A DNA stretch of 64,000 nucleotides from Chrysoperla carnea. Its lineage: Eukaryota; Arthropoda; Insecta; Neuroptera; Chrysopidae. Below, piece after piece: positions 32,901 to 63,490 of this stretch. The position numbers and the translations under genes are program-made. Positions within the stretch are counted from its first letter, which is position 1; each line of letters starts with the position of its first letter. The DNA is taken from NCBI RefSeq assembly GCF_905475395.1, contig NC_058338.1:98255435-98319434 (forward strand), in the 5' to 3' direction. The notes beneath the pieces are model-generated. The model did not search any database. It saw only the letters and a program-made list of their open reading frames with translations, and was not told where the DNA came from.

Positions 32901-33195
32901 TATGAATAATTTTTCAAAATTTTAAGTTAATGGTGTCTTTTTCTGTAGCGCCGCCTTAGCAACCTAAACGAAATAATTTTCCATTAATTTTGAATTTTTT
33001 TTTTTTAATGTTTTCGGAAAAATTGAAAATGAATAAAAGAACACGAGAAATCTTTATTTATTATGTAAGAAATTTGCGTGTACTTTTAATTGTTTAAAAA
33101 AATATTCCTTTTTCCAAGACGAGTTTTATTTTTTATTTTACGAGTTTAGACCAACGGAATATCCTTTTTACTAACAAAATATTTTTTTAATTCAG

Positions 33196-39624: not shown

Positions 39625-39705
39625 TATTGTTTTTTTTTTTTTTTTTTTTTTTTTTTCTTATATATATAGATAAACAAAGTTATTTAAAAATAAAAAATTT
39701 TATTG

Positions 39706-41749: not shown

Positions 41750-42227
41750 TCTTGAGATTAAACTGTATGTTAAAGGTTAAAGTTTGTAGTTTATGTGTTA
41801 AACATAGGAGTTAAATAGTTAAATAGAGTTATACACTTTGATTTTTTTTAAAGAACTTAATCACACTGGTATTATTTGATTCACTGTCACTTAATATATT
41901 TTTTAGATTGTTTGCATTTAGATTTAGTTCGATTCTCAACTTTGAGTAAATTTTGCAAGTAAGTAGTAGGTGTTTTATGGTTAAGGGAGTATTGCATGTT
42001 TGACACATTGGTTGAGGGGATTTTGTAAGCAGATACTTATATTATGGGTTAGTTTTGAGTGTCCCATTCTCAGTCTCGTTATTATCACTTGGTCTTTTCT
42101 GTTGGTGTTTAGTGAGGTCTGCCATATTTGTTTGTCATCTTTTATTTCTTTGAGTTTGTTATGATGTACCTTTTGCAATTCGTCAGTGCGTTTCTGTATA
42201 AATAATTCATTTATATGGCTTAGAATG
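41746..42227 (-). pseudogene. I-type LINE, 3' part of ORF2 and 3' untranslated region
   Basis: On the minus strand from 42227: INELFIQKRTDELQKVHHNK then TNRKDQVIITRLRMGHSKLT, the conserved region after RNase H in I/R1/jockey-group ORF2 (pattern RR..V.LTRLR.GH..LTH). The frame continues from the LINE part that ends at 60808, so this is one copy split by the 18.6-kb element. It stops at 41981. Confidence 0.85.
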
Positions 42228-43140
42228 ATGCTGAAGTTGGCCGCTAAAAAAAAATAGTCGAGAAAATAAAGGATAAAAAAAAAACATTAATTGTGACTTA
42301 GAATGGAATAATTCATAACACTATATTATAAGATCAACTCCCAGGATCATTCAGCTACCCATAAAAAGTGAAATTAATAAGAAAATCTTGGGAAAATCAT
42401 CCTCTTTGTATTATTATGACCAACAAATTTATTTTGCTTACGTTAGTTTTAAGCTACGTTTAACAATGAGTAATGAATATAAGATATTCAAAAAAAAAAA
42501 TATGGAAAATTTCGGAAAATATGTAAGAAAATTTTCTTATGGAAAAAACTTTTTTTTGGAAAATTTTCTTGAATGTTGAAAGACATTTGAAGGCTATTGA
42601 AACATTTTAGCTAGAATTGATCACTGTTTGAAAACTATTGAGTGAATTTTAGTTGAATTTTAAAATAGGTATATGTGTTATAGAATAATCATCTTTGGAA
42701 AAGCGTCATAATTTTCTTCAGCAAAATAACTTTTTCATTTAAGAAAATTTTCTCGTTAAATGAAAGGCTATTGAAACAATTTAGGTAGAATTGGTGACTG
42801 TTTGGCCACCATTTTCAATGATTATCCTATTTTAAATGAAAGGTAATATGTACATTGTTTAATTGTTAGCGGGTGTTTTTTGGAAAATTGACAATAATTT
42901 TTTTCTGCAAATTAAATTTTTTTTTTTTAAATAATTTTTTGGAATAACGAATGCATTTCGAAACAATCTATCCAGAATTGATCACTGTTTGAAAACTATT
43001 GAGTGAATTTTAGTTGAATTTTAAAATAGGTATATGTGTTATAGAATAATCATCTTTGGAAAAGCGTCATAATTTTCTTCAGCAAAATAAATTTTTCGTT
43101 TAAGAAAATTTTCTGGTTAAATGAAAGGCTATTGAAACAA
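42228..43140. repeat. Left terminal inverted repeat of the 18.6-kb element
   Basis: The outer 360 or so bases match the right end closely (CATTAATTGTGAC, CTACCCATAAAAAGTGAAAT, GGGAAAATCATCCTCTTTGT). Then follow three units of 174-186 bp, marked by AATTGATCACTGTTTGAAAA at about 42614, (variant) 42788 and 42974. Confidence 0.9.
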
Positions 43141-45020
43141 TTACATTACACATAAACAAATACATTGTTTATGAGTAAATTGAAATTTTTGTTATGTAGC
43201 TTTTATCTATATATTATTATTTTTATGCTTTTAACTATAAAAAATTAAAACAATTAAAAAATTTAAAAAAAAAGTCCTGATGCGTAATTGTCGTATCTGG
43301 AATAGTTATTGTAATAATAAAAGCCACAGATCGAATGAAAAAGGCAAGTTTGATGGAATATTAATATTAAAAATTCCAAAAAAAATAGTAAAAATTTTTT
43401 TTTTGTAAAAAATAACGCATGTCTATTTTTATTATAAAATAGAGTATATAAAAAAAATTGTTTATAACAAATTATTTATTTAATAAATAAATGAAAACTT
43501 TTTTTTTATATAATCCGGAAGCAAAATAAAATTTATGATTTTTAGATTTTAAACGGTTTCTTAATATTAATAATTAGTAGCTAAAAAGATTGTTAATTAA
43601 CAAACGCATTTTTAAGCAACAAATAAATTTTTTTAAGAAACCGTTTTTTTATTTTAAATAAAAATTTTCGATTTACTCATAAACAATGTATTTTTATGTA
43701 GCTTTTAACTATAAAAAATTAAAACAATTAAAAAATAAAAAATAATTTTTTCATTACTTTTTTTCATTTGTTAATTTTCAAATGTTAATAACAAGTTGAA
43801 AAATCAAAATTTAAAAACGGTAGTTTATTTGTAAGCCTAATAAGAATAACTTCACGGAGGGAAAAAAATTCTGGGGTTTTAATTTAATAATTATCGGAGA
43901 TTTTACGTTATCATTCTGAATAGAAAAAATTGTTAGTTAACAATTACATAACTAATGGAAAAATTTCGAAAAAAAATTGTAAACCACGGATTATTGTTTA
44001 TTCATGTATCTCAAAACTACATTAATTTTTTTATTTATTAATATTCATATTTTATATGTTTAAATAATTTTTTTTGTTAGTAGGTCTCAGAGACAGAACG
44101 CGCGAGAGAGCCAGACTTGCTGTATTTTGCGCTATTGTCAAGGCTCTGCAAAAATTATAAATATTAGAGATACAATTTCGGCAGTCGGAACTTTATTTTA
44201 GGAAATTTCTTCATCTTTTTGGATCTTTTTTCAGATTTCGAAAATTTTCAATGTTTTTGGAGTTATTCAAAAAAAAAACTGAGCCCCCTGTTTTATTTTT
44301 CACTTAACTGTTTATAACTTTTGCAATTTTTTTCAGCGCCATTTCGGATTTTTCAGTAAACTTTCTACATAAAATTACGAATCGAATGACACCTGTTTCG
44401 TAATTTTCGGAGAATATATAAAAAAGTTCGAAAAAATCGTACATGTTAACCAGACTTTTATTAAAAAACAAGTGAAAACAAACAATTGACTGAGTTAATT
44501 GTTGAAATACCATGCATAGTCAGTGTTGATTTCTTTATCACATTACACATACAAACATGTGACACATACATTACTGATAATCAAGTATAGTACATATTAG
44601 AAAATTTCCGCCTAATTGGCGCCCTCACGGGTAAACAATGATGTTTACGAAAAAATGTTTTAAACAAAAGTTGTTTAATTTTTGATAAGGAACATTTTTT
44701 ACATTTAAACTTTTGTTCTATCTCTAACGGTTTAAGGGATGGGTCCTACGGACCCAAGACCCAATTGACCTATGGTGCTCATTTACGAACTTGACCTCAC
44801 TTTTTACGTCCTGAGTACGTTGTAAAAATTCAGCTCGATATCTTTTTTCGTTCTTGAGTTATCGTGTCCACAGACGGACGGACAACCGGAAATGGACTAA
44901 TTAGGTGATTTTATGAACACCTTTGACAAAATTTTTTTTCCTACCATCATTATTTTTAAGCGTTATAAACTTGGGCCTAAACTTAATATACTATGTATAT
45001 TTCATATATACATGGTATAA
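43141..45020. repeat. Interior repeats: repeat H copy 2 and repeat A copy
   Basis: 43222-43272 is a scrap of the start of repeat H; 43695-44455 a full repeat H copy; 44466-45020 a repeat A copy on the minus strand beginning AACAAGTGAAAACAAACAAT. 43273-43690 is AT-rich without recognised features. Confidence 0.75.
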
Positions 45021-45834
45021 TAAATAACTTTTGTTTGAGGCATTTTTTCGTAAAAATCATTGTTTTCCCGTATGGAAGCAATTTTAAACAATACTTTGGT
45101 TTCCATTTTAGTATCCAACATAAAAGATAGAGAGATGACAATTTGTAGATACCTTCAAGTAGAGAGCCTTATGGAAAAATTTTGTACAAAACGAAAGTGT
45201 TTGCTAAAAAATACTTCGTAAAATTTTCGAAAACTGGGACAATGGCGACCAGAAGAACTCAATTTGCCTAGTCAATTGTTTTTTCACATAATGCACACAA
45301 TTTCATGTTAGGTAAAGTTCATTTTTTAAAACTTGTGTGATTGCAATTTTTGTTTTTTACGAATACAAGAGGTTGAAATGAGCAAGAACTTAATTCCTCA
45401 TGAATCTCTAAGCATGAGCGCTTATGCCGATAATCGATTGAAAACATAAGCAGAACTAAAAATTTTAACATTTCTGAAACTCAAATTAATTTTTCACGCA
45501 TCATATCTTAAAAACTATTAGACATAAGGGCTATGGAGTGCCTTCAATTGTTAAAAATTTAATTTAACATGGCACAGATCGGTAAATGAATAATAGTTTA
45601 AAAATACTAAAAAACATGCTTTTGTAACTAGCTGAATTAAAAGCTATAGAATAATTTCTTTAAATACAAAAAAAATCATTTTATCGTAAAACAGCGCAGG
45701 GTGCTAAATTTGAATTTCAAGCGTGGTTTTTATCACAAATTTATTCAAAAAAATTCAATATAAATATGGTGGGAGCGCAAATAAATGTATATATTTTTAA
45801 ATGTCCGAATCGTGAATCCTCAAAAGATCCTTTT
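45021..45834. other. Interior AT-rich sequence
   Basis: Partly similar to 4790-5060 (AAAATTTTAGCATTTCTGAA against AAAATTTTAACATTTCTGAA), so a decayed repeat. No gene seen. Confidence 0.4.
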
Positions 45835-47470
45835 TTATACCATGTATATATGAAATATACATAGTATATTAAGTTTCGTCCCAAGTTTGTAACGCTTAAA
45901 AATATTGATGCTACGAAAAAAATTTTGGTATAGGTGTTCATAGAATCACCTAATTAATCCATTTCCGGTTGTCCGTCCGTCCGTCAGTCCGTCTGTGGAC
46001 ACGATAACTCAAAAACGAAAAAAGATATCGAGCTGATTTTTACAGCGTACTCAGGACGTAAAAAGTGAGGTCAAGTTCGTAAATGAGCATCATAGGCCAA
46101 TTGGGTCTTGGGTCCGTAGGACCCATCTTGTAAACCGTTAGAGATAGAACAAAAGTTTAAATATAAAAAATGTTCCTTATCAAAAATTAAAAAACTTTTG
46201 TTTGAAACATTTTTTTGTAAACATCACTGTTTACCCACGAGGGCGTTAATTAGGTGCAAATTTTATAGTATGTATTAATATAGGAATATCAGTTGTATGT
46301 GTGTGTGTGTATTTAAAAGTGAATATCTTTTGTTATTTACGTGACGTCAAAAAAACAAACGATTGCGCATCAACACTATGTATTATAGTACCTATGTATT
46401 AATATGGGATTATCAGTTATATATGTGTAACATGTATGTTTGTGTAATGTGACAGAGTAATCAACACTGTCTATACATGGTATTTCAACAATTAACTCAG
46501 TCAATTGTTTGTTTTCACTTGTTTTAATTTTAACTTTAATATTTTCTGAAAAATCCACATGTACAATTTTACGTGTTTTTTGTGATAAAGAAAGAAAATT
46601 GTACGCCCGATTACTTTGGACAAGACTATTTTTTCTCATAAATGTAAAGCTTTCCAGTAAATTACAAATTGTTTTCAATGTTGGAAAACCGTTAATTTTT
46701 CTGAAATGTTGCTTTTTTTCTGTACATATGAAAATTATTATTATATAAATAGAAAAGCTTAAACTGAGGCATAGGCATTGCTGCCTCCAGAACTTCAGTA
46801 AATCATATGAAATTGCATCTAATTTCATGGGAATACAATGATAGCATCATGTACACTGCAGAAAACCTAACCTCTCTACACTAATATGATATACCACATA
46901 CAGATGATGGAACATAGCGTATAAAAATTATATTAAGTTCAGTCCCAAATTTGTCACGCTTAAAAATATGCTATAAAAAAAATTTGGTATAGGTGTTCAT
47001 AAAATCACCTACTTAGTCCATTCCCGGTTGCCCGTCTTTCCCTCTGTCAATGGAAAGTGATATCAACATTATATTTTATAGCGTGCTCAGTCCGCAAAGA
47101 GTAACTTTGAATTCGAAATGAGTAACCTAAGTCAATGGGGCCTTGTAACGTTAGAGATAAAACAACCTCTATTTGAAACATTGTTTCGTAAACATCTCTG
47201 TGTAACCGTAGGACAAAAAAAATTAAAATATACAGGTAGCTTCAGCACATTTAGAACATTCACGAAAAAAAAAAATAATTAAAAGGCTTTCGAAAATTTT
47301 CCAAACCAATTTAATGGAGGTCGAAAGACAGCTCTAATATTGTGTTGGTTTTGTTAACTCTTCTAATTTATTAAAAATAATGCAAGTAGTGACATTCATC
47401 ACTTTCTATATAAGGTATTTCAACAATTAACTTAGTCAATTGTTTGTTTTCAGTTGTTTTTATTTAATTT
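45835..47470 (+). repeat. Two repeat A copies in the same orientation
   Basis: 45835-46525 is a nearly full copy ending TGTTTGTTTTCACTTGTTTT. 46925-47462 is a diverged second copy (CAATTGTTTGTTTTCAGTTG at its end). The longer frames here, at 46376-46828 and 46509-46748, are chance readings of repeat sequence. Confidence 0.75.
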
Positions 47471-47679
47471 AAAAACCAACCAAATAATATAATCGCATTC
47501 TTTTATCTAATTAGTATGAACGACTTCGATGTTTTCTTGAAAAATCCATTTTTATTAAAAATAATAATAATTTTAAATTATATGAACAAACTTATTCTTA
47601 AGTATATTAACTTTTGTAGACTTTAAAGAACATTAAGGACATTAGAATATATTATATCGATTACTAAAATCAATACTTG

Positions 47680-48175
47680 AGCATCCTGTATCACTACATA
47701 GTACCTATAAAACAAAGTCGCTTTCTCTGCCCCTATGTCCCTTTGTATGCTTAAATCTTTGAAACTACGCAACGGATTTTGATACGGTTTTTTTTTAATA
47801 GATAGAGTGATTCAAGAGGATGGTTTATATGTATAATAACATCCATTAAATAGTGGAGAAGTACTGCTATTTTTGTGGTTTCTAATGTGATGTCGTAAAT
47901 AATTACATTTTTTCCGCATACATTGCAAACAGCAGGAAATCTTCATGGTATAGGGAAAGGGGGATTGTTTTACTCCAAATTTAACGCGTGCGGGCCACGG
48001 GCAGTAATGAATAAATCAAAACTACTGGATCGATTTTAATCACATAGGCTATATATTTTATACCCGTGCGAAGCCAGAGCGGGCCGCTATGTTTTTATAT
48101 ACAACGTTCGCAGTTTTTCTGAAGTGTATTTAGTATCAGCATTGCACCCGTGCGAAGCCGGGGCGGGTCGCTAGT
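47680..48175 (-). repeat. Conserved insect interspersed repeat, inverted
   Basis: CAAAGTCGCTTTCTCTGCCC and GAAACTACGCAACGGATTTT are the inverse of 2900-3000; the far end CGTGCGAAGCCGGGGCGGGT is the familiar 'gtg cga agc cgg ggc' opening of many arthropod repeats. Confidence 0.65.
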
Positions 48176-48397
48176 TATGTATAAGAATAAAAAGTTGGTT
48201 TTTCCAATATTAAAAATAAATGTTCAGCAATGATCATGTTTACCATATGTTTATTGTTCAAAGTATAATATACCGCCTAATTTATTTTTAATCCTGTATT
48301 ATATATATAAAAATAAAAAGTGTTTTTTTTCTAATATTAAAGTGTTTACCACCGATACCGACACATTATACCGATATACCTGCTTATTTATTTTTAA

Positions 48398-48908
48398 GGT
48401 AGTTGAGTTGTTTTATAAAAAATGTTAAGAAATCTTCAAAACTTTTAATATAATTAATTAAGAGCCTAATACACACGCTGTTAGTTAAAGACAATTTATC
48501 GCGCTGCTTACATGAGATAATTACAGTTAAAAATGACATTTTTTTACACACGTAGTATAGGAGAAGCGTATGAAAATGGCAATCTTCTTAATTTTTTTCA
48601 GTAAAGGAGAGTTACTGTTTGGACAAAAACTAATATTTAGAACAATTAAAAATAAAACATAAAATTATTCATCGTTTACTTTTCCTAAAATATTAAATTA
48701 AATATTACATTTAGAGAATAATTTTTAATGGAGGGGTTTATGTGTTTATTAATTGTATTGTCTTTGAATGTATTGTATTTGATTGTCGTACTACTGTAAT
48801 CAGTAAAACAACATAGTTATTTGCAGTGTATTTGGATAGGTATGTATATACGTATAGAATGAGTAATGAGGTAATAATTTGATACTAGATTATAGCGAAA
48901 GAACTACC
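48398..48908. mobile_element. TTAA-target element, GGTAGTT family, 511 bp
   Basis: TTAA at 48394-48397 and 48909-48912; ends GGTAGTTGAGTTG and, inverted, GGTAGTTCTTTCG. Non-coding. Nested inside the 18.6-kb element. Confidence 0.8.
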
Positions 48909-49325
48909 TTAAACTAATGTACTTATTTGAAGTGATATATCATTGTTATTAATGCAAATTCTATCAAGAAAACAAACTATTTTGGTCAATTTTACTAAGT
49001 AACCATCGTATGTTGTACACAGGGTGTCATCCCAGTCACAAAATATCTTTTATTTAAAAACTTTTTTTTTTTTTTAATATTGTAAATTTATTAGCCTGTT
49101 TTTCATAGTTTTTATGATTTTAAATATGAATTATAATAATATTCGATTTTTTAAATATTACAATTTTTTGTGAAAAGAATTTTTTTAACGATCCAAAGAT
49201 TATTAATTTACTGAAAAAAAATATTTATGTCACTCCTCAGTAACATAAATATTTTTCTGCCCCAGCTACAGATACATCCAATTTATGTAGACCCGAAGGT
49301 TGCGTGTGAACTCTATTTTTTAAAA

Positions 49326-49985
49326 GAGAACAAGTGAAAACAAACAATTGACTGAGTTAATTGTTGAAATACCATGTATAGGCAGTGTTGATAACTCTGT
49401 CACATTTCACATACATACATATCTGACATATTTAACTCATATTCTCATATAATGCGCAAGTGTTGATGCGCAATCGTTTGTTTTTTTTGACGTCATGTAA
49501 ATAACAAAAGATATTCACTTTGATATTCCTATATTAATACATACTATAAAATTTGTACCTAATTAACGCCCTCGTGGGTAAACAGTGATGTTTACAAAAA
49601 AATGTTTCAAACAAAAGTTGTTTATTTTTTTGTAAGGAACATTTTTTACATTTAAACTTTTATTCTATCTCTAACGGTTTACAAGATGGGTACTACGGAC
49701 CCATGACCCAATTGACCCATGTTGCTCATTTACGAACTTGACCTCACTTTTTACGTCCTAAGCACGCTGTAAAAATTTCAGCTTGATATCTCTTTTCGTT
49801 TTTGAGTAATCGTGACCACAGACGGACGGACGGCCGGACGGACGGACAACCGGAAATGGATTAATTAGGTGATTTTATGAACACCTATACCAATTTTTTT
49901 TTTGTAGCATAAATATTTTTAGGCGTTACAAACTTGGGACTAAACTTATAATACTATGTATATTTCATATATACATGGTATAATT
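49326..49985 (-). repeat. Repeat A copy, nearly full length
   Basis: From AACAAGTGAAAACAAACAAT to ATATACATGGTATAAT, about 660 bases, with all the marker blocks in order. The short hydrophobic frame is broken here by an indel after ATGAACACCTATACC. Confidence 0.85.
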
Positions 49986-50090
49986 ACTAAGCCAGCTTAT
50001 TAACTTTGGTTTTAAAAAAGCGTGTACCCGTATACTTTGAATCTTAAAAAAAGATGACAAATATGATTTATGTATGAAAAATGAATTTAA

Positions 50091-50729
50091 GGATGTATGA
50101 GCATGGTAGTGGGGGCACAAATTTAAAAATAGATATTTTCAATTTTGATGATAAATTTATATTATTACTTGACGATATAAGACCAAAAGTAAGAATAAAA
50201 TTTTTCGATATCTGGCTTAATTTTCAAAATATCGAAAATTGAAAATTTTGTTTAATTATGTAGCTTTCGATATTTCGAAAACCAAGACACATATCAAAAA
50301 ATTTTATTCTTATTTTTCGTCTACATTCATGAAGTTATAACAAAATTCATCATCAAAATTGAAAATAAGATAAAAATAATTTCAACTCTTAATCTACCCT
50401 GCTCTTACATCCCTTATATGGACGGTGACACTTAGTTTTTTTCTTTTCTAATTCATTGCTAATATGTTTACTTTCTATTAAAAAGTTTTTTTTAAATTTG
50501 TTTTCATTCATTCCAAATGAAAATTATCAAAAGCTTCCAAAATATGTTGTTTTTTGAGATTCCTCCATAAGAGCCAATGTATTTTATATCGATTTTTAAT
50601 GACTTTTTTCTTAAAAATTTGCACGGTTACCTAAGCTGAAATTTTAACCACATATTCTTTGAGTAAAAGACTACCTACAAACAAATTTTGAGCCTTTAAA
50701 GCAAACATTGTTGTCATGCTCATACATCC
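50091..50729. mobile_element. TTAA-target element, GGATGTATGAGC family, copy 1 (639 bp)
   Basis: TTAA at 50087-50090 and 50730-50733; ends GGATGTATGAGCATG and its inverse CATGCTCATACATCC. Very similar to the copy at 51314-51952, which has the same length. No open frame. Confidence 0.9.
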
Positions 50730-51313
50730 TTAACAAAGGTGTCCCACAAATCAAGATCGCATTGAGTTTTTTTCCATTCTTAAAACAAATGTGTCGCGTA
50801 TTATATGTAAAACGATATAATAATATTATCGTATTATTTTTTTTAATATATGATTAATATTAACGCTTTTGATATTTTCTTGAAAGACTTCATTTTCATT
50901 AAAAATAATTAAAATTTTTAATGAATTGAACGAACTTAGCCTTTAGTAATGGTATTGAACTGCATCTGATACTACAAATACTTACAAGAAATACTTATGT
51001 TGCCACCCTGTATAATATAAAAAATAAAATATTGGAATTTCCATAAATTTAACTAAAGTGTAAGTAGGTACATAATTATGTATAGTTTATGATTAAAAAT
51101 ATAAAAATTAGGATACCAGACTAGGAAATAATTTTATTTTTATTTTTTTATTACCAGGATAGATACAATAAAATGGATTATGTATGTATGTACCTACGTA
51201 TTGAATACATACATACATACCGCGTAGTATGCCCGATAAAGAGGAAAATAATCATCTGTGTAAGGAATCGTAATGTATCTATTCTATATTTTTTTTCATT
51301 CATATATTTTTAA

Positions 51314-51952
51314 GAATGTATGAGCGAGAGCGTGGGGGTAAAAATTTAAAAATAGATTTTTTCAATTTTGATGACAAATTTATATTATTACTTGACGATA
51401 TAAGACGAAAAGTAAGAATAAAATTTTTCGATATCTGGCTTAATTTTCAAAATATCGAAAATTGAAAATTTTGTTTAATTATGTAGCTTTCGATATTTCG
51501 AAAACCAAGACACATATCGAAAAATTTTATTTTTATTTTTCGTCTACATTCATGTAGTTATAACAAAATTCATCATCAAAGTTGAAAATAAGATAAAAAT
51601 AATTTTAACCCTTAATCTACCCTGCTCTTACATCCCTTATATGAACGGTGACACTTAGTTTTTTTCTTTTCTAATTCATTGCTAATATGTTTACTTTCTA
51701 TTAAAAGATTTTATTTTAATTTGTTTTCATTCATTCCAAATGAAAATTATCAAAAACTTCCAAAATATGTCGTTTTTTGAGATTCCTCCATAAGAGCCAA
51801 TGTATTTTATATCGATTTTTAATGACTTTTTTCTTAAAAATTTGCCCGGTTACCTATGCTGAAACTTTAACCACATATTCTTTGAGTAAAAGACTACCTA
51901 CAAACAAATTTTGAGCCTTTAAATCAAACATTGTTGTCATGCTCATACATCC
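51314..51952. mobile_element. TTAA-target element, GGATGTATGAGC family, copy 2 (639 bp)
   Basis: TTAA at 51310-51313 and 51953-51956; left end GAATGTATGAGCGAG, right end CATGCTCATACATCC. Same orientation as copy 1, 585 bases away. Confidence 0.9.
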
Positions 51953-52724
51953 TTAAGTGATAACCTTTGTAAATATTCTATCCATCATATACAGACTGTT
52001 CACGAAAATTTACATTTTTTTATGTAGAAACTCTTCTTTTTTCTTTTTATATTGTACATTGGCCCAATCTGTTTTTAAATATTTTTTATGACTTTAAATA
52101 CTAATTATAATAATATTCGATTTTCTATAAATTAAAATGAACTACAGTTTCTTCAAATGATAAGCTAATAAAAATTTTTATATGATTTTAACAATTTTAT
52201 TAATGGTCCAAAACAATTTTAACAAATTTAATAATGGTCCAAAAGTAATAATTAATAAAAAAATTTAAAAAAAAATGCCATAGGGAGCATGATTTCAAGG
52301 AGTATCCACATTTAATTTTAGTAAATCCGAAGGTTACATGTGAACCCTATATTTTAAGGGAGAGTTATTAAGCCAATTTATTAGTTTTGGCTATAGAAAT
52401 AGCGTGTATTCGAAGCCTTTAAATCTTTACCAAAGATAAAAAATATGATATATGCATTTAACATATATGTATTCACATTGACTTATTCCCATTCTTAAAA
52501 AAATGATGTTGATATTTTCTTAAAAGACTTCATTTTAATTACAAAGATTTAAAATTTTTAATTATCTTAACCAAGTTAGCCTTTGGCATATTAACGGCAT
52601 CGAACTATACTTGAGTAAGCCTCGATAAAACAACTCAAGTATAGATCTGAAGACTTTTAATAACGAATAGTAATATAATTCATCCTGTATATAAAATAGT
52701 TTTGGGGTTTTTAAAAAAAATATA

Positions 52725-53328
52725 CAGTGTGTTCATTTTAAAAGTATTCACCCTTAATAACTTAAGTGTTGACATAATGTGATTATTGTTTTTAATGAAA
52801 ACACGTCGATTTAGATGTATATCGAGGGGGAAGTTCGAAAATGGTAGCTAGGGAATTGTAAGTTTCATTTTTTCAACCTTAGCTACCCCAACTTTGAAAT
52901 TTCAAATGGCACCCCGTGATACCTCATTTGAAAAGGCATAAAATTCTCGCCTCAACCATGACAAAAAAATAAAATAAAATAAACAAAATGAATCGATTGT
53001 TTCTATAGATAGACTACACAGAAAATGGAATTCGTACCTAACTTCTTCTGAGAAGTCTATCTTAAGAACCAATAGATCGATTTAATTTTTGTTGTCATAG
53101 TTGAATACCGAATTTTACACCTTTCAAATAATGTGAAGACAAGGTAGAAGTTACCATTCTAAATTTTAAAGATGAAGTAGATAGGGGTGAAGGAATAAAA
53201 CCTATAATTCTCTAGCTATCATTTTTTAATTTCCCTCTGGCTATCAAATCGACGTGTTTTCATTCAAAAACGTAATAACATCAAATCAATAGCTATTAAG
53301 GGTTGATACATTTGAAATAAACACACTG
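52725..53328. mobile_element. Mariner/Tc1-like MITE, about 604 bp
   Basis: TA-flanked ends CAGTGTGTTCATTTTAAAAG and, inverted, CAGTGTGTTTATTTCAAATG, continuing with ACCCTTAATA on both sides. TA targets and CAGTGTG-type ends fit Tc1/mariner. No transposase frame. Confidence 0.75.
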
Positions 53329-53439
53329 TATATTTAGCAATTCAAAAAAACATCCTTTATCCCTTTTTAATTGTAAAAAATATTTTTTTTTCTATTTATT
53401 TTTGACACTGATCACAGGTAGTTTTATCAGTATTTAAAT

Positions 53440-53572
53440 CTCAGCATTTATCTTAGATATATCATTAAGTACTCAAGATTAGATTAGTACACTTGTATTG
53501 AATTTATTTTGTAAAAGTGAATAATTGATTTTAGTTAAAGTGAAAGTGAATTTATTAAAATTTAAGAATCAA
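53440..53572 (+). other. G3 non-coding first exon (start approximate)
   Basis: A strong donor ATCAA|GTAAGTAAT at 53573 follows a stretch without repeats (GTGAAAGTGAATTTATT). The next acceptor, 55626-55627, falls one base before the G3 start codon, so this is most simply a 5' untranslated exon. Joined, the start context becomes CAAAATGG, a good one. The transcription start is a guess; TCAGTATTT at 53425 is a possible initiator. Confidence 0.5.
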
Positions 53573-53721
53573 GTAAGTAATATTCCTTTAAATGTAATTC
53601 ATATAATAATATTTTTTAAGAAACAGTACTAATTGTTTTGACTAAACGATTTACTAAAAATTTATTTTTTCGTGATATTAATATTTTATAATTTTGATAA
53701 ATATTTTAAAATATATAATCC

Positions 53722-55026
53722 AGGAGGAATCGGCGCATGAGTACCGAAAACTATTCCACCTCAATTTTTTTTATGCGATCCTCTTCAGCCTTCCTAATGA
53801 TATAAATGCATGTTGCCATGGCGCAACCCGGTGCCATATTGTTTAAACCGAAATTGTTTAAACAAGTGCAAGGAATTGTTATTTTCCAACCGGACAATTT
53901 TTTTTATATTCTTTATTGAAATACCAATAAAAAAGGTCCTACTTAATATTTTTAATATTTTTAAAGATATGAATTTTTAAAGGTTCGAAAAATCTCAAAA
54001 TTGGGTACTTTCGACCCATGAAAAATATATTTTAAAAAAAACATAATGTCTAAATAATATTTTTTTTAAATTCTCTATAAAATAGTTAATAATATGGTTA
54101 ATAGAGATTTAAAAAAATTTCATTGTTTATATCTTTTTTTTTAATTGTTAATTTCGCGCGCTCACAAGGAATTTTAACAATAACTTTTGAAATATAAATT
54201 TTAAGATAATTGGTTTTTTGAGAAAATTTTATTGGCCTAATAACTAGGCCAGTGTCAATAACTGGGTCTTTTACTTTAATTTCCGTTTTAATAACAAAAA
54301 AGTAATATAAACTGATAAAAAAGTAATTTTAATAACATGTTCCAATTTATGCTTAAATAACTTTTGAAAAATTGATTTCAGAAAAAAATTTATTAAAAAC
54401 AAATTGTAGACAATTTAATTATTAATAACATTGCTCTCCTTAACAATCTTGATAAAGTTGATAGTTTTTAAGATAAATGATAAATAATGATTCAAGACAC
54501 AGAGAGGTCGATGCAACGCATAAGTCAGAGAGAGAAAGCGATACTTAAAGGTACGCGACGCATACTTGTTAGCGCGCGAAATTAACAATAAAAAAAATAA
54601 TATAAACAATGAAATTTTTTTAAATCTCTATTAACAATATTAATAACTATCGTATAGAGAATTAAAAAAAAAAAATATTACTTAGACATTATGTTTTTTT
54701 TAAATATATTTTTCATGGGTCGAAAGTACCCAAATTTGAGATTTTTCGACCCTTTAAAAATTAATATCTTTAAAAATATTAACTTTATCGTGAAAAGTCA
54801 TAGGACCTTTTTTACTGGTATTTCAATAAAGAATATAAAAAAAATTTGTCCGGTTGAAAAATAACAATTCCTTGCAATTGTTTAAACAATTTCGGTTTAA
54901 ACAATATTGCGCCGGGTTGCGCCATGGCAACATGCATTTATATCATTAGGAGGGCAATTTGAAGAGGATCGCATAAAAAAAATTGAGGTGGAATAATTTT
55001 CGGTACTCATGCGCCGATTCCTCCTG
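53722..55026. mobile_element. Foldback element of 1.3 kb in G3 intron 1
   Basis: Ends CCAGGAGGAATCGGCGCATG and, inverted, CCAGGAGGAATCGGCGCATG, identical over at least 20 bases. The arms of about 440 bp are 53722-54165 and 54570-55026. The loop 54166-54569 contains the region around GTTAGCGCGCG. Non-coding. Confidence 0.85.
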
Positions 55027-55628
55027 GACTAATACCTAAAATTTTAATGAAACGGGTTCTCAGTATATATTTGTAATATTATCAGAAATAAAAGTGCGTA
55101 TTAACGATATTTTTATTTTGGCTATGTTATAATAACGGTAGAATATGATAATTTCAAAATTCCCTTACAGTCGGGTTTCTTGGTACAGGGTTTTGAAATT
55201 TTATAAAAAAAGGATATTTTTGTGAATTGTGTCATAACGCTCATTGAAAAAAATTATAAATTTTTTTTTGAAATTAAAAAATTTTTTTTTTATTGAGTTA
55301 AGATAAATTACGAAAAAGGGCGATAAGTTTGCAATATTTTAAAGTAAATGGCAATATTTCTAATAAAATCCTTTCTACAACTCCATGTACCTAGATTAAA
55401 ACGCTTCCCCGTCTAAAACTGTTTTGAGAAATTGTCATTATTTTGACTTAATGGAACAAATAATGGAGTTCTGCTGAATTATAGCCTAGATCATAGTGGA
55501 CGTTCAAAATACCAGAATACAAAGGCATATTTTTATATTCCATTTTAACTTTTTTTTTTCGATACTAAAAAATTAAATGTCCATATGCAGAATAGTCTTT
55601 AAAATACGTCAATTTTTTTTTTTTTAGA

Positions 55629-55749
55629 ATGGACAGTGAAATGAATCAAGTGGAAAAAGTTCCCACTGTATTTGCGACAACATTACGAGCAAGTGCGGAG
55701 CTGTTTGAGTCAAAAGTATTCAACTTTGTGCCGCCACAAAATGTGGAGT
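55629..55749 (+). CDS. G3 coding exon 1
   Basis: The ATG sits one base after the acceptor TTTTTTAG. Forty codons plus one base (MDSEMNQVEKVPTVF...FVPPQNVE) end at donor GGAGT|GTGAGTA, phase 1. This N-terminus shows no motif I recognise. The whole G3 protein is 154 aa (121 + 84 + 260 coding bases), and all intron phases agree. Confidence 0.8.
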
Positions 55750-57828
55750 GTGAGTATTTTTTTAAATATATGAACAAACTTAGATGCAAAGTAATTATTC
55801 AAGGAAAATTTTTTTAATACAAAATTTATCATATTTTCAAACAGTCGTGTCTCTGCGTAAAACCATCGTATTTCGAATCGCAATAGCACCTTTGAGAACT
55901 TGTACTTTCTAGTTTCGGAATCTATTGCTCCAAAATATATGTCCCTTGCCTCTTTGCACGAAAGGTTGAATGGATGACAAATGTTATCCCTAAATTTTGT
56001 ATATAGTTTAGAAGAGTACCAAAATTTAAAACATTATTTTACTACAAATTTGTTTAGTCCACTCGAAAGCTTGTTTATTTTTGATTAAAATGAGGAACAA
56101 AAAATTTTCGTACGACCTTTGGGACTAAATATTAACTTTCTAAGCAAAATTTGCACTTCTGGGTTTAAAATCCTGTAGCTTTTAATCATCGTTCTGAAAT
56201 TTTTTAAATATAGTTCGTAAGCAGAAACTACCTACTTTAAAACTCTGGTAAATGATTTGTAAAAAAAATGATGATTTATAACAAATTTTATCACTCTAGC
56301 ATTTTTCGTTTTTAAAACATGCCAAAAAACGGAATATTTTCATACTTATATGCGTTTTTTCACCTGGTCACCATTTTATAAAAAAAGGCTTTATTTAAAA
56401 TCTTATTATGTTTGTTATTATGTAGAAATGCAAAAAAACTTTTATCACCCTTTGCCGCTTTTTTTCGGAGGATTTTAAAGGGCAAAAATTGTAAATGCAT
56501 AACAAATTTTAAAATTTCTTTTAAAAAAAAATTTGTTAAGACTGAAAAGTTAGTTTATTTTTCTTAAAAGTGAATTATTAAACAATGCCATCCGATTTAT
56601 TTGTATCAAGATATTCACATTCCAAGCTTCGAACGTAATAATTTTTTTTATTAAAATTTTGAATAAACTTACCAGCATATTTTTTGTATGGTTGGAGTGT
56701 TTCTGTGTATTAACAATGTTGTGTTTAAAATATGAAAAAATTCTATTAGTGGCATGTTTTAAAAAAGAAAAAAATTTTAATGCTATGATTATTTCAAAAG
56801 ATTCAGAATTGAAACACAAAAGTGTCCGTTTTGCTTAAAAATCGAATATCTTGGTCCAAAAAGCTCGTACAGATTTTGTATACTTCATTAAAAAAAAATC
56901 TTTCGAGTGGACTTAACAAATTTGTTGTAAAATAATTTTTAATAATTAAATTTGTTGTAAAGTAATTTTGGTACGTTTCTAATCTTTATATAAAATTTAG
57001 GGATAACATTTCTCAACTTTTCAATAATCTTTTTAATATATTCCAAAACCATTACTTAACGTTAACGTTTTTTTATAAAATTATGGTAAAACATGGGTTA
57101 AAAATTTAGGTTCTGTATATTAATATTTATAACAGATTTTCGATAACTCGAACTTCGTAAAGTCGAAATCGTCAAAAAGACGATTTATTGAGAAAAATAG
57201 GTAACATTAAAAAAGCTAGGTATATAGTAATTTGGTTAAAAATGAGTGTAAATTTATTCATTACGATACAGCGATTATGAACGATTAGTATTTATGAGTG
57301 AGAATAGTATTTATTATTTCACGAGGGTTGTTAAATTCAATTTTCTGTTAATACAAATCTTGTATAGAACTCGAACGTAACCACATATGTTATTTCATGC
57401 ACTCCTCTTAGACTGATGCCGTTACTTTTTTGGGATTAACTTATTTTAAACAGGCAAGGGCCGGTGCAAAAATTTAGTTTTCTTCAATCTTAAATTTTGA
57501 AGATATTAAAATTTGACATAAGCACACATTTTTTGGTGGACAAACCGTTGCCTAACGAATGGCATTTTCATTTTGTATAAATTTCACATTTGGGGGTACT
57601 GAAGAAAGTTATTATTTCCTCATAACTTAAAATCGAACGGTGAGGAAATAAAAATTTTTTTGTGTACAGACGTGAGCAAATAATTTTCTAACGAATGACA
57701 TCTGCATTTAAAAAAATTGGCATTTTTTGGTGCTCATGTAAAAATTTTTATTTGTGTCAAAAGGGTGGGTAAACGAAAACTTTGGGTGGAGATTAATAAT
57801 ATTACTTAAAAATATTTTATTTTTACAG
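55750..57828. other. G3 intron 2 with a decayed foldback
   Basis: 55965-56110 and 56880-57020 are loosely inverted copies (ATGTTATCCCTAAATTTTGT against AAAATTTAGGGATAACATTT; GTCCACTCGAAAG against CTTTCGAGTGGAC), so an element of about 1.05 kb lies in this intron. 57020-57828 shows nothing else. Confidence 0.6.
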
Positions 57829-57912
57829 CACAAAAACAAACAGAGACTGTGCCTGCGAACGAAAAAAACAACTCCCAGGACAGTATCGAAGAGCTCAAAG
57901 AAAAACTAAAAG
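57829..57912 (+). CDS. G3 coding exon 2: coiled-coil segment
   Basis: Acceptor TTTTTACAG at 57820-57828; CA completes Ser. Encodes a polar linker then SIEELKEKLK, which joins DLENQLARRN of the next exon into a heptad-like Leu pattern, a short coiled coil for dimerisation. Donor AAAAG|GTGAGAA at 57913, phase 1. Confidence 0.85.
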
Positions 57913-57987
57913 GTGAGAATTATTTTTATTAATTGTCTGACTTATGATAAATTCCATTGACTAATTACAATAAATTTAATTTTCCAG

Positions 57988-58247
57988 ATCTGGAAAATCA
58001 ATTGGCGCGAAGAAATACTTCACGCGGTCGTGGTAGAAGAAATGGCCGAAAGCGTAGACGGGTTAATAACGGAGTCCGCGGTGAGCGTGGTGGCCAAGAA
58101 GGGCGCGGTGGCAACAGAGGCCACGGTGGCAACAGAGGCCGCGGTGGCAACAGAGGTCGCGGTGGACATGGTGGGCATGATGGCTATGAAGGCTATGGTG
58201 GGCATCCGTACGTTGTCATGTACGGACCTAGATTCTTCTTTAAATAA
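57988..58247 (+). CDS. G3 last exon: Arg-Gly-rich (RGG-type) tail
   Basis: Acceptor TTTTCCAG at 57980-57987. After DLENQLARRN comes a basic SRGRGRRNGRKRRR stretch, then four or five tandem units of GGNRGRG/GGNRGHG type (58105-58165, an 18-bp minisatellite), then GHGGHDGYEGYGGH and the end MYGPRFFFK. RGG tails bind RNA and are arginine-methylation targets in proteins such as fibrillarin and Gar1; G3 has no such catalytic domain. The stop TAA (58245-58247) overlaps an AATAAA signal, so the 3' untranslated region may be very short. G3 lies wholly within the 18.6-kb element and is its only recognisable gene. Confidence 0.85.
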
Positions 58248-59448
58248 AAAAATATAAAAACAAATTTTGTGTATTATTTGAACAACTTTAATATCAAAAG
58301 TTGATACTACTTTACCCTCTAAAAAATTAAAAAAAAAAAATCCGTTTATAGAATGTATTCCACCGTTATATATATTTAGTCCTTAGGTTCAAAAATGGGG
58401 CAGTTTTACATAAATGCATGTAAAATTCAAAATTGAACTTTTATACATAGTTTATGATGAGATCTTCGTTTACTGTAATGGTGTCCTATTTTTGAACGGA
58501 AGGACTAAAAACTTCAAAACGCAACCAACTCCTCAATACTCGACAAACTCGTAATTACAACAACACATGGTTATCAAAATTAAGAAACATTCAAGGTAAA
58601 TAAGTGAAATAGATTTTAAAAAATGCAATAGAGCTACATTTGATCATATATTATTAAAAAAACATTGATAACTGCTGCTGGATTCGAACTAATTAATCAT
58701 TAAAATAGTAAACAATGATATGGACGCCTTACGAAACGCCGATGTCTTCCGTCCAAAGCATGCCTAAATAATTATTAGTTTTAATAGCGACTTTTTAATA
58801 AAGTTAATCATAAATTCATGAATTAAAATTAAACACTAATTAAATTAATCCAATACAATCTATAAAAATTGAAATAAGTTTTATATCTAATTTGTGTTAA
58901 ATATTATGAAAACAGGTATATTGTGTACTTAAATACTCTACCCTATGAAAGATAAAAAACATGCGCGCTCGTAAGCACGCAGTTTTATTGCTCTAATTAA
59001 GTTTTTTCCCTTTACAATTTTTTTCTTACTTTTAAGTAAATGTTTTAACAATAAGTCTTTTTTTAACAACATTTTTGTGAACGATACTCAATTATTAAAT
59101 AAATAAATAAAAACTACACAATAATCAAATTAATCGAATACAATCAATAAAAATAGTAAAAAAGTTTAATCTATAACTTGTGTTGAATATAATACATATT
59201 TGAAAAACATGAACAGGTGTTGTAGTGTGTTATGTACTACGGATACTTACCCGAAGTTGGATAAAAGGTGTGTGCGTTAATTATACGCACGTTGATTTCT
59301 TTTAATTTCGATACGCTATCTATATCTTTCTAAAGTAATTATATATACTATGAAAAATATCCGTCAATGGTGAAACCTATAAATGGAAAAACTGTAAAAT
59401 TTGTGAAAAAAAAAAACAGAGAAAACCGTTATATCTTGTAAATGTGTA
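58248..59448. repeat. Interior AT-rich region with a small inverted-repeat element and a 300-bp direct duplication
   Basis: 58376-58508: TTTAGTCCTTAGGTTCAAAA pairs with TTTTTGAACGGAAGGACTAA, a 130-bp palindromic element. 58790-58925 and 59090-59225 are diverged direct copies (TAATCCAATACAATC / TAATCGAATACAATC). Nothing coding. Confidence 0.55.
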
Positions 59449-60807
59449 TGAAAATTTTCTTAGATGAAAAAATTATTTTGCTGAAAAAAATTATAACGAT
59501 TTACCAAATATTCTATAAGACATATACCTATTTTAAAATTCAACTAAAATTCACTCAATAGTTTTCAAACAGTGATCAATTCTAGCTAAAATGTTTCAAT
59601 AGCCTTTCATTTATCGAGAAAATTTTCTTAAATGAAAAAGTTGTTTTGCTGAAGAAAATTATAACGATTTACCAAATATTCTATAAGACATATACCTATT
59701 TTAAAATTCAACTAAAATTCACTCAATAGTTTTCAAACAGTGATCAATTCTAGCTAAAATGTTTCAATAGCCTTTCATTTATCGAGAAAATTTTCTTAAA
59801 CGAAAAAGTTGTTTTGCTGAAGAAAATTATGACGCCTTTCCAAAGATGATTATTCTATAACACATATACCTATTTTAAAATTCAACTAAAATTCACTCAA
59901 TAGTTTTCAAACAGTGATCAATTCTGGAAAGATTGTTTCGAAATGCATTCGTTATTCCAAAAAATTATCTTAAAAAAAATTTTAATTTGCAGAAAAAAAT
60001 TATTGTCAATTTTCCAAAAAACACCCGCTAACTATTAAACAATGTACATATTACCTTTCATTTAAAATAGGATAATCATTGAAAATGGTGGCCAAACAGT
60101 GACCAATTCTACCTAAATTGTTTCAATAGCCTTTCATTTAACGAGAAAATTTTTTTAAATGAAAAAGTTATTTTGCTGTAGAAAATTATGACGCTTTTCC
60201 AAAGATGATTATTCTATAAGACATATACCTATTTTAAAATCCAACTAAAATTCACTCAATAGTTTTCAAACAGTGATCAATTCTGGATAGATTGTTTCGA
60301 AATGCATTCGTTATTCCAAAAAATTATCTTAAAAATAAATTTTAATTTGCAGAAAAAAATTATTGTCAATTTTCCAAAAAACACCCACAACGTAAAAAAA
60401 ACACTCAGAAAATTTGCGATCACAAAAAATTTATACTCACACACATTCGCATGTCTTTCAACATTCAAGAAAATTTTCAAAAAAAAAATTTTTTTCATAA
60501 GAAAATTTTCTTACATATTTTCCGAAATTTTCCATATTTTTGTTGTTGAATATCTTATTTTCATTACTCATTGTTAAACGTAGCTTAAAACTAACGTAAG
60601 CAAAATAAATTTGTTGGTCATAATAATACAAAGAGGATGATTTTCCCAAGATTTTCTTATTAATTTCACTTTTTATGGGTAGCTTAATGATACTGGGAGT
60701 TGATCTTATAATATAGCGTTCTAAATTATTCCATTCTGAGTCACAATTAATGTTTTTTTTTTATTCTTTATTTTCTCGACTATTTTTTAGCGGCCAACTT
60801 CAGCTTC
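59449..60807. repeat. Right terminal inverted repeat of the 18.6-kb element
   Basis: Five units of about 168-186 bp, marked by TTTTCAAACAGTGATCAATT (about 59563, 59732, 59905, variant 60090, 60262), lie inside a 360-bp outer part that mirrors the left end. The left arm has three such units, so the arms differ by unit number and by patchy indels. Confidence 0.9.
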
Positions 60808-61500
60808 ATGGTTTAGAATGTCATTTTTAGTACTTTTGTGGTACTCTTGTCCAGTAGTGTGAGCTTCTTCAGCTGCTTTATCTGCCAGTTCGTTACCCTC
60901 TATATTTGCTTGTCCAGGTACCCATAGGAATGTTATTTTGATATTTTTGTCGAGAAGTTCATAGACACACCTTATACTCCACAGATAGTGGAGCTAATTT
61001 GTTTGTTTTCGAGTGCCCTTAAAACACTTAGAAGTCTGTGATGATTACGAATTGGTTGTTATTTATTGAGTTTATATATTTTATTGATTTATAAATGGCA
61101 GTTGCTTCGGCTGTAAAACTGGATGCGTGTGGATTTAGTTTGTATCTTTGGATATTATTTTCATGGACAAATGCACAGGCTGTGGATGTGTCATTCCTCG
61201 ATCCGTCTGTGTATATTTTAGTATGATGTTGATATTTTTGTATTAATTGTTTAAATTTATTTTTATGTATTTTTATCGGGATCTGATGTTTTGGTATGAG
61301 ATTTAGTTTTGTATTTACATTTATTTTGTAATTAATCCAGGGTGGGTCGAATTCGGTGGTGTTTAGCTTGTGAATCTGTGCTATTTGTTGTTTATCTATT
61401 TCTAATGATCGCAAGATGTCATCTAGTTTTTCTGATAAAGGGTGTGGTAAAGATTTTTTCAGAATGTATTTTTGTTCAGGAATGTTTTGTTTCGTTGTAT
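60808..61500 (-). pseudogene. I-type LINE ORF2: RNase H region
   Basis: A frame with YTDGSRND (first catalytic Asp), FTAEATAIYKSI (Glu) and VIITDF (second Asp; the usual next residue is Ser, and a stop follows), then in shifted frame WVPGQANIEGNELADKAAEE, the end of RNase H. This follows endonuclease sequence with no RT between, so about 1.5-2 kb of RT has been deleted. It ends at the boundary of the 18.6-kb element and resumes at 42227. Confidence 0.85.
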
Positions 61501-62161
61501 TGTTTGACGAAATAATAATCGGGTAATGATCACTGGATCATAAGTCTGGGTGAGTGTCCCAGTTCACTTTAGTGATGAGTGAGGATGTGCATAATGTAAT
61601 GTCGATGCAGGAGAATGTGCCCGATGTTGTCGAGAAATGCGTGTTTCTACCGTTATTTAGTATTACTAATTCTTCGTTATCTTGTGTGATGTTTTCTATG
61701 ATTTTTCCTCTTCGACATGTGTTGGTACTTCCGATTAAGTTTGAGTAGGTATTAGTATCTCCTAAGACCAGAAAGGGGCTCTCAAGCTGGTCTATGATTT
61801 GTTGTATTTGATTTTTCGTGAAGGATTCTCTTGGTGGAATGTAAATATTACATATTGTTATGTTATTGTGATTTGTTAAATGTATTTTTGTTGTCACGGT
61901 TTGTAGATTGCTTTGAGTATCTATTTTTTCTGCATAAATGTCGTTTCGTATAAATGTCGCTACTCCTCCAGAGACAATATTTCCGTCCAGGAAATCGAAT
62001 CTGTAGGGGAAGTATCCAGTTATGTGGCTTGTGTTTTTTGTTAAGAGATGAGTTTCCTGTAGGTATATAATTTCTGGATGGTATTTTTGTATGAGCAGCT
62101 GGAGTTCTGGTAGTCGGAGGAAAAAACTATTAACATTCCATTGTATAATTGTAAAATCCAT
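61501..62161 (-). pseudogene. I-type LINE ORF2: APE-like endonuclease
   Basis: Starts MDFTIIQWNVNSF. Catalytic landmarks are visible: WNVN, LQETHL (Glu), GDTNTYSNL (Asp, Asn) and SDHYPI (Asp-His), the last just after an in-frame TGA at 61538-61540. The family nicks target DNA to prime reverse transcription. The domain is nearly complete, but the stop, the RT deletion and the RNase H lesions make the copy inactive. Confidence 0.9.
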
Positions 62162-63490
62162 TGCAAATTAAAAGTTCTATGGATGTTTTTATACTAATTT
62201 AATAGAGTGAGGTAGTGGTTATTTGTTCGAGTCTTCTTTCGTGGAGACTTCTGGATTTTTGATTCTGATTGGTCGCTTGTGATGAGTATTAGTAATTAGT
62301 TTTTTCATCTGGTAATTGCCGATTTAATGGGCTTTTTGGAGTGTATATTGGATATTTTGTGTAGGTTATCGAGTTGTGTCATTATTACCTCGGGGTCAGC
62401 ATTGTATTTTTTAATTATGTGTTCAATGTTGGGTTGGCCATGTGTTTCAGTGATAAAGTCTTTAAACGTGTTGAAATTGAATATGAAATTATCAGGATCA
62501 TCTTCTAGGGTTTTGCGGAATAGTTCAATATTTTCTAATATTATGTTTTTTGTTGTTTTATGTGGGAGTTTTTTTATTTTTGGTTCGGGGGTTTCCTGGT
62601 GAGATGTGCTTTGTGAGTCTTTGTGTGAGATACTATCCTCCTCGATTCGCTGTTTTAGTTTTTTGATAGATAGATTTGAACTCTGTCCCCGATTCGGACT
62701 CTTAGAGTGAACACGTTTTTTTATTTCTTTTTCTAATGTTAAGGGATCTTGTGGAATGGTTTGTGCTATGTTTTGGGTGATTATGGTTTGTTGTTGATTT
62801 CCTGGAAGATTTTTTTGGGAGGATATTTGTTTCAGTGTGTGGTGGTAATTATTGAATGTTAGTTAATTGTGTTTGGTTTTCTGGAGGGTTTTGTGGGAGA
62901 ATATTTGTTTCAGTGTGTTGTGTTTGTATTTCTGTTGGTGTCGATGTGTTGATAGGAGTGTTTGTGTTAGTTTTATCGGATGTGGCTTGAGGTGTATGGG
63001 TTGAGGATCTGCAAGTATCCTCTGAATGTCCGAATCTTTGACAAAGATTGCATTTTACTTCGTTTATGGATATGCGCATTCGATACGTCTTGCAATCAAA
63101 AGCTACGTCTAGGGTTTCTGGTATAGCCGGGTGATCCGCATCTACAAACACATATCTTCGGAAACTGCGGATATGTTTAAGGTTTTGATCGAGTCGTGCT
63201 GACATGAAGAAGATATCTGATGAGGGTTTAGCTCCAAGTTTTTTCAATTCGTTTAGCAATAATTCGTTTGGTACTGTTGGGAAAACCCAGAGAATTATTC
63301 TGTGTGATGGTGTGATGTATTTTTTGATTGGTACATCTACATTGTTTACTTTAATAGTTTTATATTTATTTGTGAGATTTTTTGCATCCTCTATTGATTT
63401 TAGATATACGCAGATACGGCCGTTGGAGATTCGAGAATGGTTTTACTGTAATTTGTATTTAACATGGCGATTTATTGTTATTGATTTTTA
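62162..63490 (-). pseudogene. I-type LINE ORF1 (gag-like, CCHC knuckle)
   Basis: On the minus strand a frame runs from near 63440 (NGRICVYLKSIEDAKNL) through LNELKKLGAKPSSD, SFRRYVFVDADHPAIPETL to CNLCQRFGHSEDTC, a zinc knuckle (C-x2-C-x4-H-x4-C), then a Thr/Pro/Asn-rich tail with a duplicated 60-bp stretch (ETNILPQNP / ETNILPKKS). It is stopped at 62849 and continues in another frame. A stop just upstream of 63440 blocks the natural start. It would bind element RNA. Confidence 0.8.

Follow-up and report, generated by a model that had tools for sequence, protein, structure and literature searches.

We analysed a 64,000-nucleotide stretch of Chrysoperla carnea DNA (hereafter the window; C2, forward 98255435-98319434) and propose that an 18,585-bp unit within it (42225-60809) is, with high probability, a non-autonomous foldback-type DNA transposon of this lacewing, belonging to a family with a subclass that bears the spliced gene G3 and probably moved by a transposase supplied in trans, most likely a Mutator-like one. 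The initial annotation, made from the letters of the window, had read the unit as an FB-like transposing element with a cargo gene, and the wider comparison bears this out. The unit has long terminal inverted repeats (TIRs) made of tandem subrepeats, as in foldback elements; exact target-site duplications of 8-9 bp are present at several independent sites (9 of 13 two-ended copies); and the middle is variable, with a G3 core at three loci, at unrelated sites, and a different 3.7-kb middle in six giant copies.

The unit and the LINE copy that it splits

The inverted ends of 0.9 and 1.4 kb described in the initial annotation correspond to the two arms of the unit (Table 1). Their outer 370 nt show 95.1% identity, and further inside they contain subrepeats of about 168 and 360 bp in unequal numbers per arm. 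A 13-bp direct repeat had also been noted outside the arms, and a 12/13 match is indeed found between 42215-42227 and 60808-60820. Aligning the window with other family copies, however, places the TIR start at ATGAWGCTGAAG, and the duplication is therefore best read as 8 bp (GGYTTAGA, one mismatch). The flanking repeat thus stands, while its length of 13 bp is rejected by comparison with the 12 other two-ended copies, as it comprises the 8-bp duplication and five adjoining letters that match by chance. Taken alone, the window's own duplication is modest evidence; it becomes strong only jointly with the family and with the long interspersed nuclear element (LINE) in which the unit lies.

When the LINE flanks are joined with one copy of the duplication, the frame stays open. 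The 108-aa joined stretch gave 152 matches in the genome (best 150 of 448 candidates scored), including seven LINE paralogues with 87-93% amino-acid identity that span the join over 105-107 of the 108 residues without a stop; the window's own LINE was recovered in the same search as two pieces. Since these paralogues are uninterrupted and the joined frame is open, the LINE halves fit one copy, into which the unit was inserted. This confirms the earlier view that one LINE copy is split and its frame resumes beyond the unit. With one duplication pair spanning the whole, a single insertion event, as originally put forward, remains the best account. The window's LINE copy is itself damaged: an EEP endonuclease is retained, RNase H matches weakly at 18.1 bits (cut-off 25.8), and no reverse transcriptase (RT) was found between the two.

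Copies in the genome and their subclasses

The search covered 559.5 Mb in 337 contigs. With the window's left end (361 bp), 40 places were scored of 42 candidates. A 21-nt terminal pattern occurs at 33 places with at most two mismatches, 31 of them exact, against none for the reversed control; 24 of these 33 form convergent pairs about 9-23 kb apart, one pair being nested in another, and nine are unpaired, among them those at C3:32.86, C6:27.80 and C5:8.13 Mb. Using the family terminus ATGAAGCTGAAGTTGGCCGC as a guide, we compared 13 two-ended copies, window included: five carry an exact 8-bp duplication, four an exact 9-bp duplication, the window 8 bp with a mismatch, and three none. In 156 mispaired controls, an exact match never exceeded 3 bp. 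The other copies of the 360-bp outer end that the initial annotation had proposed to look for are thus numerous, several with 8-9-bp duplications of their own. In 8 of 12 copies the two ends agree fully over their outer 370 nt, and judged by this sequence identity the family seems young and recently active, which makes presence or absence among individuals directly testable. No description of this lacewing foldback family was seen among the papers listed by our literature searches.

Six giant copies of 15.6-23.3 kb (C2:46.63, C2:84.65, C1:105.04, C2:59.09, C1:101.75 and C1:102.99 Mb) consist of subrepeat arms around a non-coding middle, and no open reading frame (ORF) of at least 130 aa was found in 14 stretches examined from them. 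The arms of three giant copies, checked for tandem repeats, are arrays whose unit measures 173, 348 or 352 bp or a multiple of these; within one arm the subrepeat array reaches about 7.9 kb. The 3.7-kb middle is common to all six, 95-99% alike in comparison with the C2:46.63 copy, and is flanked by 1.2-kb inverted stretches at 89%; it lies in inverted order in the C1:101.75 copy.

The G3 subclass comprises the window, a compact copy at C6:13.84 Mb (L041, reversed) and a copy at C1:128.08 Mb (L045, L054). The C6:13.84-Mb copy has two ends and a perfect 9-bp duplication, CTGCCTCAT, at an unrelated site, and its G3 is broken. Because the core is common to unrelated sites, it is far likelier that this G3 arrived with the element than that it joined later in place. 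The C1:128.08-Mb copy has an exact right terminus. A further locus, C6:10.687 Mb, contains only parts upstream of G3, beside a subrepeat array and an element end, and no G3. Within the unit, a 648-bp direct repeat (95.7%) occupies 50086-50733 and 51309-51956; the C1:128.08-Mb copy has a single unit of this type in the opposite orientation.

Several inserts are nested in these copies (Table 1), so that the unit may have been shorter than its present 18.6 kb at the time of transposition. Intron 1 of the C6:13.84-Mb G3 holds an RT-bearing element between 6-bp repeats, for which the window represents the empty site. We accordingly rejected this RT (RVT_1, above cut-off) as a gene of the foldback element, given that it interrupts the intron; the insert is presumably a Penelope-like element. 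Dispersed repeats also flank G3 exons 2 and 3 (57519-57792 and 58375-58717), and most other matches of one DNA search lie there (best 40 of 923 candidates).

Related or similar structures were also seen. Locus L044 (C6:7377000-7386999) belongs to the family but has diverged; its 8-bp duplication, CTTTAAAC, is exact, and it has a middle of another kind, in which open frames of 198 and 190 aa match no Pfam family above cut-off. In the window, 7334-8660 is an inverted repeat (86%) of about 157-bp subrepeats, perhaps a second foldback-like element, and 23046-24903 is an inverted repeat with arms of about 0.8 kb, 92-93% alike, around a short centre, possibly a long-TIR element; a search for target duplications gave no clear one for either.

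Table 1. Features of the unit and of the flanking LINE copy, in window positions
Feature	Position	Strand	Basis or remark
3' part of split LINE: end of RNase H region, C-terminal frames	41829..42224	-	
Left target-site duplication GGCTTAGA	42217..42224	.	8 bp, one mismatch vs 60810-60817
Left TIR: outer end, then subrepeats	42225..43142	+	repeat and family alignment
Interior common in pieces, ~95-98%, to C1:128.08-Mb copy	47482..53490	.	no counterpart in C6:13.84-Mb copy
Core middle domain, common to C1:128.08-Mb and (to 59240) C6:13.84-Mb copies	53491..59443	+	minus 53716-55031
Nested inverted-repeat (MITE-like) element	53716..55031	.	empty site in both relatives
G3 coding exon 1	55629..55749	+	splice model, copy alignment
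Dispersed repeat in G3 intron 1, many genome matches	55793..57025	.	in all three G3 copies
G3 coding exon 2	57829..57912	+	splice model, copy alignment
G3 coding exon 3, RGG-rich, stop 58245-58247	57988..58247	+	splice model, copy alignment
AATAAA polyadenylation signal overlapping stop codon	58243..58248	+	
Right TIR, more subrepeat units	59450..60809	-	repeat and family alignment
Right target-site duplication GGTTTAGA	60810..60817	.	comparison with two-ended copies
5' part of split LINE: ORF1-like frames, EEP endonuclease, first part of RNase H; no RT found	60810..63442	-	

Structure and exon divergence of G3

The window's G3 encodes a protein of 154 aa that starts MDSEMNQV. By inspection it has a charged stretch that may be coiled, and its tail is basic and rich in RGG. 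Spliced G3 matches a nucleolin-like protein of C. carnea, P0001 (E 1e-31, 59% identity over 78%), and the spliced exons of the C1:128.08-Mb copy translate to this public protein, identical in every letter. The three coding exons assigned to G3 in the initial annotation are thereby supported, and the polyadenylation signal named there lies at 58243. No Pfam family was found for spliced G3. GT..AG splice junctions are kept in all three copies; frame, junctions and a stop are retained in the window and C1 copies, and in exon 1 of the C6 copy an insertion of 20 bp shifts the frame. A genome protein search with G3 returned five matches, each of which lies in the window or in the C1 copy, and DNA searches with both G3 halves (best 40 of 1088 and 40 of 923 candidates) showed exon coverage at the window, C1 and C6 loci only, the other listed matches being dispersed repeats in introns or flanks or the partial C6:10.687-Mb copy. 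Neither these protein matches nor the best-scored DNA candidates included a parent gene outside elements; as the diverged C6 copy was missed by the protein search, a diverged parent could be missed as well.

G3 exons 2 and 3 differ by 14-23% between copies and the introns by 1-5%. Between window and C1, 8 of 118 positions differ in exon 1, 11 of 57 in exon 2 and 24 of 106 in the first part of exon 3; the corresponding non-coding blocks give 4/200 and 7/305 (intron 1 ends), 2/75 (intron 2) and 13/466 (downstream), and all aligned non-coding sequence 141/3541, including 40/592 in the upstream flank. Exon 2 and the first part of exon 3 together (35/163) exceed all non-coding sequence (Fisher p 5e-15) and the upstream flank alone (p 4e-7), as does exon 2 by itself (p 2e-5 and 0.003, respectively). 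Exon 1 shows no clear excess (6.8%, the same as the upstream flank; p 0.15 against non-coding and 1.0 against the flank), and a claim of its acceleration was withdrawn when the p value of 0.017 obtained on four non-coding blocks became 0.15 with the upstream flank added. The same contrast appears in the window-C6 and C1-C6 pairs (exons 10.7-20.8%, introns 1.3-5.0%). All six window-C1 indels in exons 1, 2 and the first part of exon 3 (by eye) are multiples of three, compared with 12 of 36 in non-coding sequence.

These counts leave out the repetitive end of exon 3 and the downstream C1-C6 comparison, whose 23% arose artificially because an end marker was missing; the non-coding control consists in part of dispersed repeats. 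They come from block-wise alignment (19.3% for exon 2, 22.6% for exon 3), which replaced a global exon alignment (30% and 34%) because gaps inflated the latter, and alignment across in-frame gaps is uncertain. A dN/dS above 1 for G3 was rejected (NG86, 133 codons: dN 0.25, dS 0.49), and residues 1-77 give dN 0.17 and dS 0.22. With dN/dS below 1 and high synonymous divergence, diversifying selection alone does not predict the pattern. In venom three-finger toxin genes, the part of PMC2711939 consulted describes segment changes confined to exons while introns stay alike, and the G3 pattern resembles this exon-confined change. The fast exons 2 and 3 beside slow introns raise the question of selection, repeat slippage or templated exon replacement; we consider selection with repeat slippage likelier than the bolder idea of templated replacement.

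Elsewhere in the window, biased open frames lie on the + strand at 3181-3788, 5835-6470, 13699-14109, 29872-30381 and 33175-33603. They are Cys/Glu-rich, Pro/Cys-rich, acidic or Lys/Arg-rich, and perhaps form a fast-evolving, low-complexity gene cluster beside the element. On the - strand, 499-1197 holds a frame with DUF7041, gag-like by inspection, and 38953-39657 a 235-aa frame that by inspection has the look of a non-LTR (long terminal repeat) ORF1.

Transposase class, alternative explanations and known systems

A transposase was found neither in the unit nor near family ends with the two Pfam families tried (PF10551 and PF21787), in keeping with the remark in the initial annotation that none is visible. 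A Pfam scan of 11 of 35 stop-to-stop frames (at least 60 aa, 43100-59500) and of spliced G3 gave nothing above the curated cut-offs, and neither did Rfam (gathering threshold) and tRNA scans of the window. A Polinton/Maverick, considered for its size and long TIRs and defined by capsid and DNA-polymerase genes and 6-bp duplications, was rejected, as the scanned ORFs showed neither of these gene families above cut-off and no 6-bp duplications were seen. The exact duplications are 8 or 9 bp, within the 8-11 bp of Mutator-like elements (MULEs); four of the nine are 9 bp, which does not fit the 7-8 bp of the P superfamily, the P element itself making 8 bp. Tetris and Tm1 have duplications of 8-10 bp according to the sections of PMC4079207 and PMC3169594 concerned. 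The length of 8-9 bp thus suggests a Mutator-type transposase, duplication length or the transposase being the basis on which Tetris and Tm1 were placed in Mutator. Twelve of 14 MULE-domain matches in the genome cluster at C1:138.28-139.76 Mb, in the last 1.7 Mb of C1, with open frames of 194-736 aa.

We propose the following hypothetical mechanism, in which (i) a transposase supplied in trans, most likely Mutator-like, would bind the termini and perhaps the subrepeats; (ii) it would make staggered cuts of 8-9 bp and thereby cut and paste the elements; and (iii) G3 would be carried along, either as a passenger or in an accessory role, and may still function in the window and C1 copies. Several observations weigh against our interpretation. 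The window's own duplication carries one mismatch, three of the 13 two-ended copies have no duplication (C2:43.099, C5:59.37 and C6:29.13), and once a mismatch is allowed, 12 of the 156 mispaired controls reach 6-8 bp, one of them 8. The left end of the C1:128.08-Mb copy was not found in 30 kb upstream. Measured from the 38 ends entered, three partial end matches being left out, the nearest of the 14 MULE (PF10551) matches lies 10.2 Mb away and the nearest of 65 P-like (PF21787) matches 67 kb away. As for the gene, the dN/dS of G3 is below 1, gaps of 1 and 4 nt occur in the alignment of the last part of exon 3, and the window's own G3 is not among the known proteins returned by the protein search.

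Other explanations must be weighed against these data. The family could belong to the P superfamily, like Galileo, and be moved by a P-type transposase in trans; four of the 65 P-like matches lie in open frames longer than 600 aa, and PMC3573991, in the passages concerned, recounts that Galileo was first filed as foldback-like and its P transposase found later. The same text gives 7-bp duplications for Galileo, as opposed to 8 or 9 bp here, Tetris and Tm1 with 8-10 bp were placed in Mutator (PMC4079207, PMC3169594, in part), and no P-like match comes nearer to an entered end than the distance given above, so that we consider a P-type origin unlikely. It is highly improbable that two foldback elements invaded a host gene, G3, in separate events and that the inverted ends do not delimit one mobile unit. 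The unit does hold much other repeat sequence, and what 43143-47482 has in common with the other G3 loci is limited to short dispersed-repeat matches; yet the whole unit lies between a single duplication pair and interrupts a single LINE, the C6:13.84-Mb remnant of G3 sits between two ends with a perfect duplication elsewhere, and no G3 was found away from element ends in the protein search and among the best-scored DNA candidates. Arms produced by misjoined haplotigs or collapsed repeats are scarcely credible: long near-identical palindromes are hard to assemble and the outer ends are identical in 8 of 12 copies, but the window's arms differ by 5%, its junctions carry independent duplication and LINE-frame signals, and exact 8-9-bp repeats in 9 of 13 copies are not expected from join errors.

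Within the preferred interpretation of a foldback transposon, the role of G3 can be read in different ways. It is possible, though doubtful, that G3 is a functionless, decaying fragment whose short GC-rich repeats mutate fast and so cause the exon differences. Its synonymous sites are as diverged as the rest, units of 18 bp recur in exon 3, exon 1 has changed no faster than its upstream flank, the reading frame of the C6 copy is shifted, and the window's G3 is absent among the proteins returned. Decay accounts less well for exon 2, which is not an RGG repeat and nevertheless exceeds the non-coding sequence, and for the frame, splice junctions and stop kept in the window and C1. We also entertain, as a decidedly long shot, that G3 is the foldback family's own fast-evolving accessory protein and not a captured host gene: a basic, RGG-rich protein that probably binds nucleic acid and would be engaged in an arms race, either with the host or with the transposase acting in trans. 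Exons 2 and 3 of G3, at synonymous sites too, would then be renewed at about 5-9 times the non-coding rate, perhaps through templated exon replacement (cDNA-mediated conversion) together with selection. If true, G3 would be a transposon-borne counterpart of the exon-confined change in venom genes.

The lacewing family resembles Drosophila FB/NOF, with its subrepeated inverted ends and movement of gene-bearing DNA, by description only. In Ising's gene-bearing TE (transposable element), as the relevant part of PMC6431247 has it, the DNA lies between foldback transposons, whereas the lacewing has one unit with one end on each side. The same source says that DNA transposition loses efficiency above about 6 kb, a size exceeded by the copies of 15.6-23.3 kb with intact duplications. 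Galileo (P superfamily, Drosophila) is similar in its long TIRs, about 210-bp internal tandem repeats and transposase-less copies with the longest TIRs, and differs in its 7-bp duplications and P-type transposase (PMC3573991, in part). Tetris of D. virilis shares an outer flanking domain followed by about 220-bp tandem repeats and a variable middle, 8-10-bp duplications and long repeat arrays between two end domains, and the passages of PMC4079207 concerned report that no autonomous partner was found; they also describe no apparent protein-coding middle and TIRs of up to 1.7 kb, in contrast to the ~7.9-kb arm array of the lacewing. Tm1 of Meloidogyne has foldback-like composite TIRs, mostly 9-bp (8-10) duplications and a transcribed Cg-1 in one copy, but its subrepeats are 13-15 bp and the copies described about 1-3 kb, the Cg-1-type copies are without obvious protein-coding potential, and its transposase-encoding copy resembles Phantom MULEs (PMC3169594, in part).

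In Ssk-FB4, a Pack-TIR/Pack-MULE of D. melanogaster, a foldback has carried a nearly complete gene, introns included, to several loci whose duplications differ; the passages of PMC8277862 concerned give TIRs of about 700 bp, 9-10-bp duplications, an unknown transposase and a gene family with signs of positive selection. Ssk-FB4 has a known parent gene (PMC8277862, same passages), whereas none was found for G3 among the best-scored candidates. The lacewing unit further differs in its 18.6 kb, with giant sister copies, and in G3 exons 2 and 3, which diverge far more than the introns, synonymous sites included. Besides Ssk-FB4, the lacewing family thus presents an insect case, here in Neuroptera, of foldbacks dispersing a spliced gene. 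Its closest precedents are Tetris, Tm1 and Ssk-FB4, and Ssk-FB4 is the nearest.

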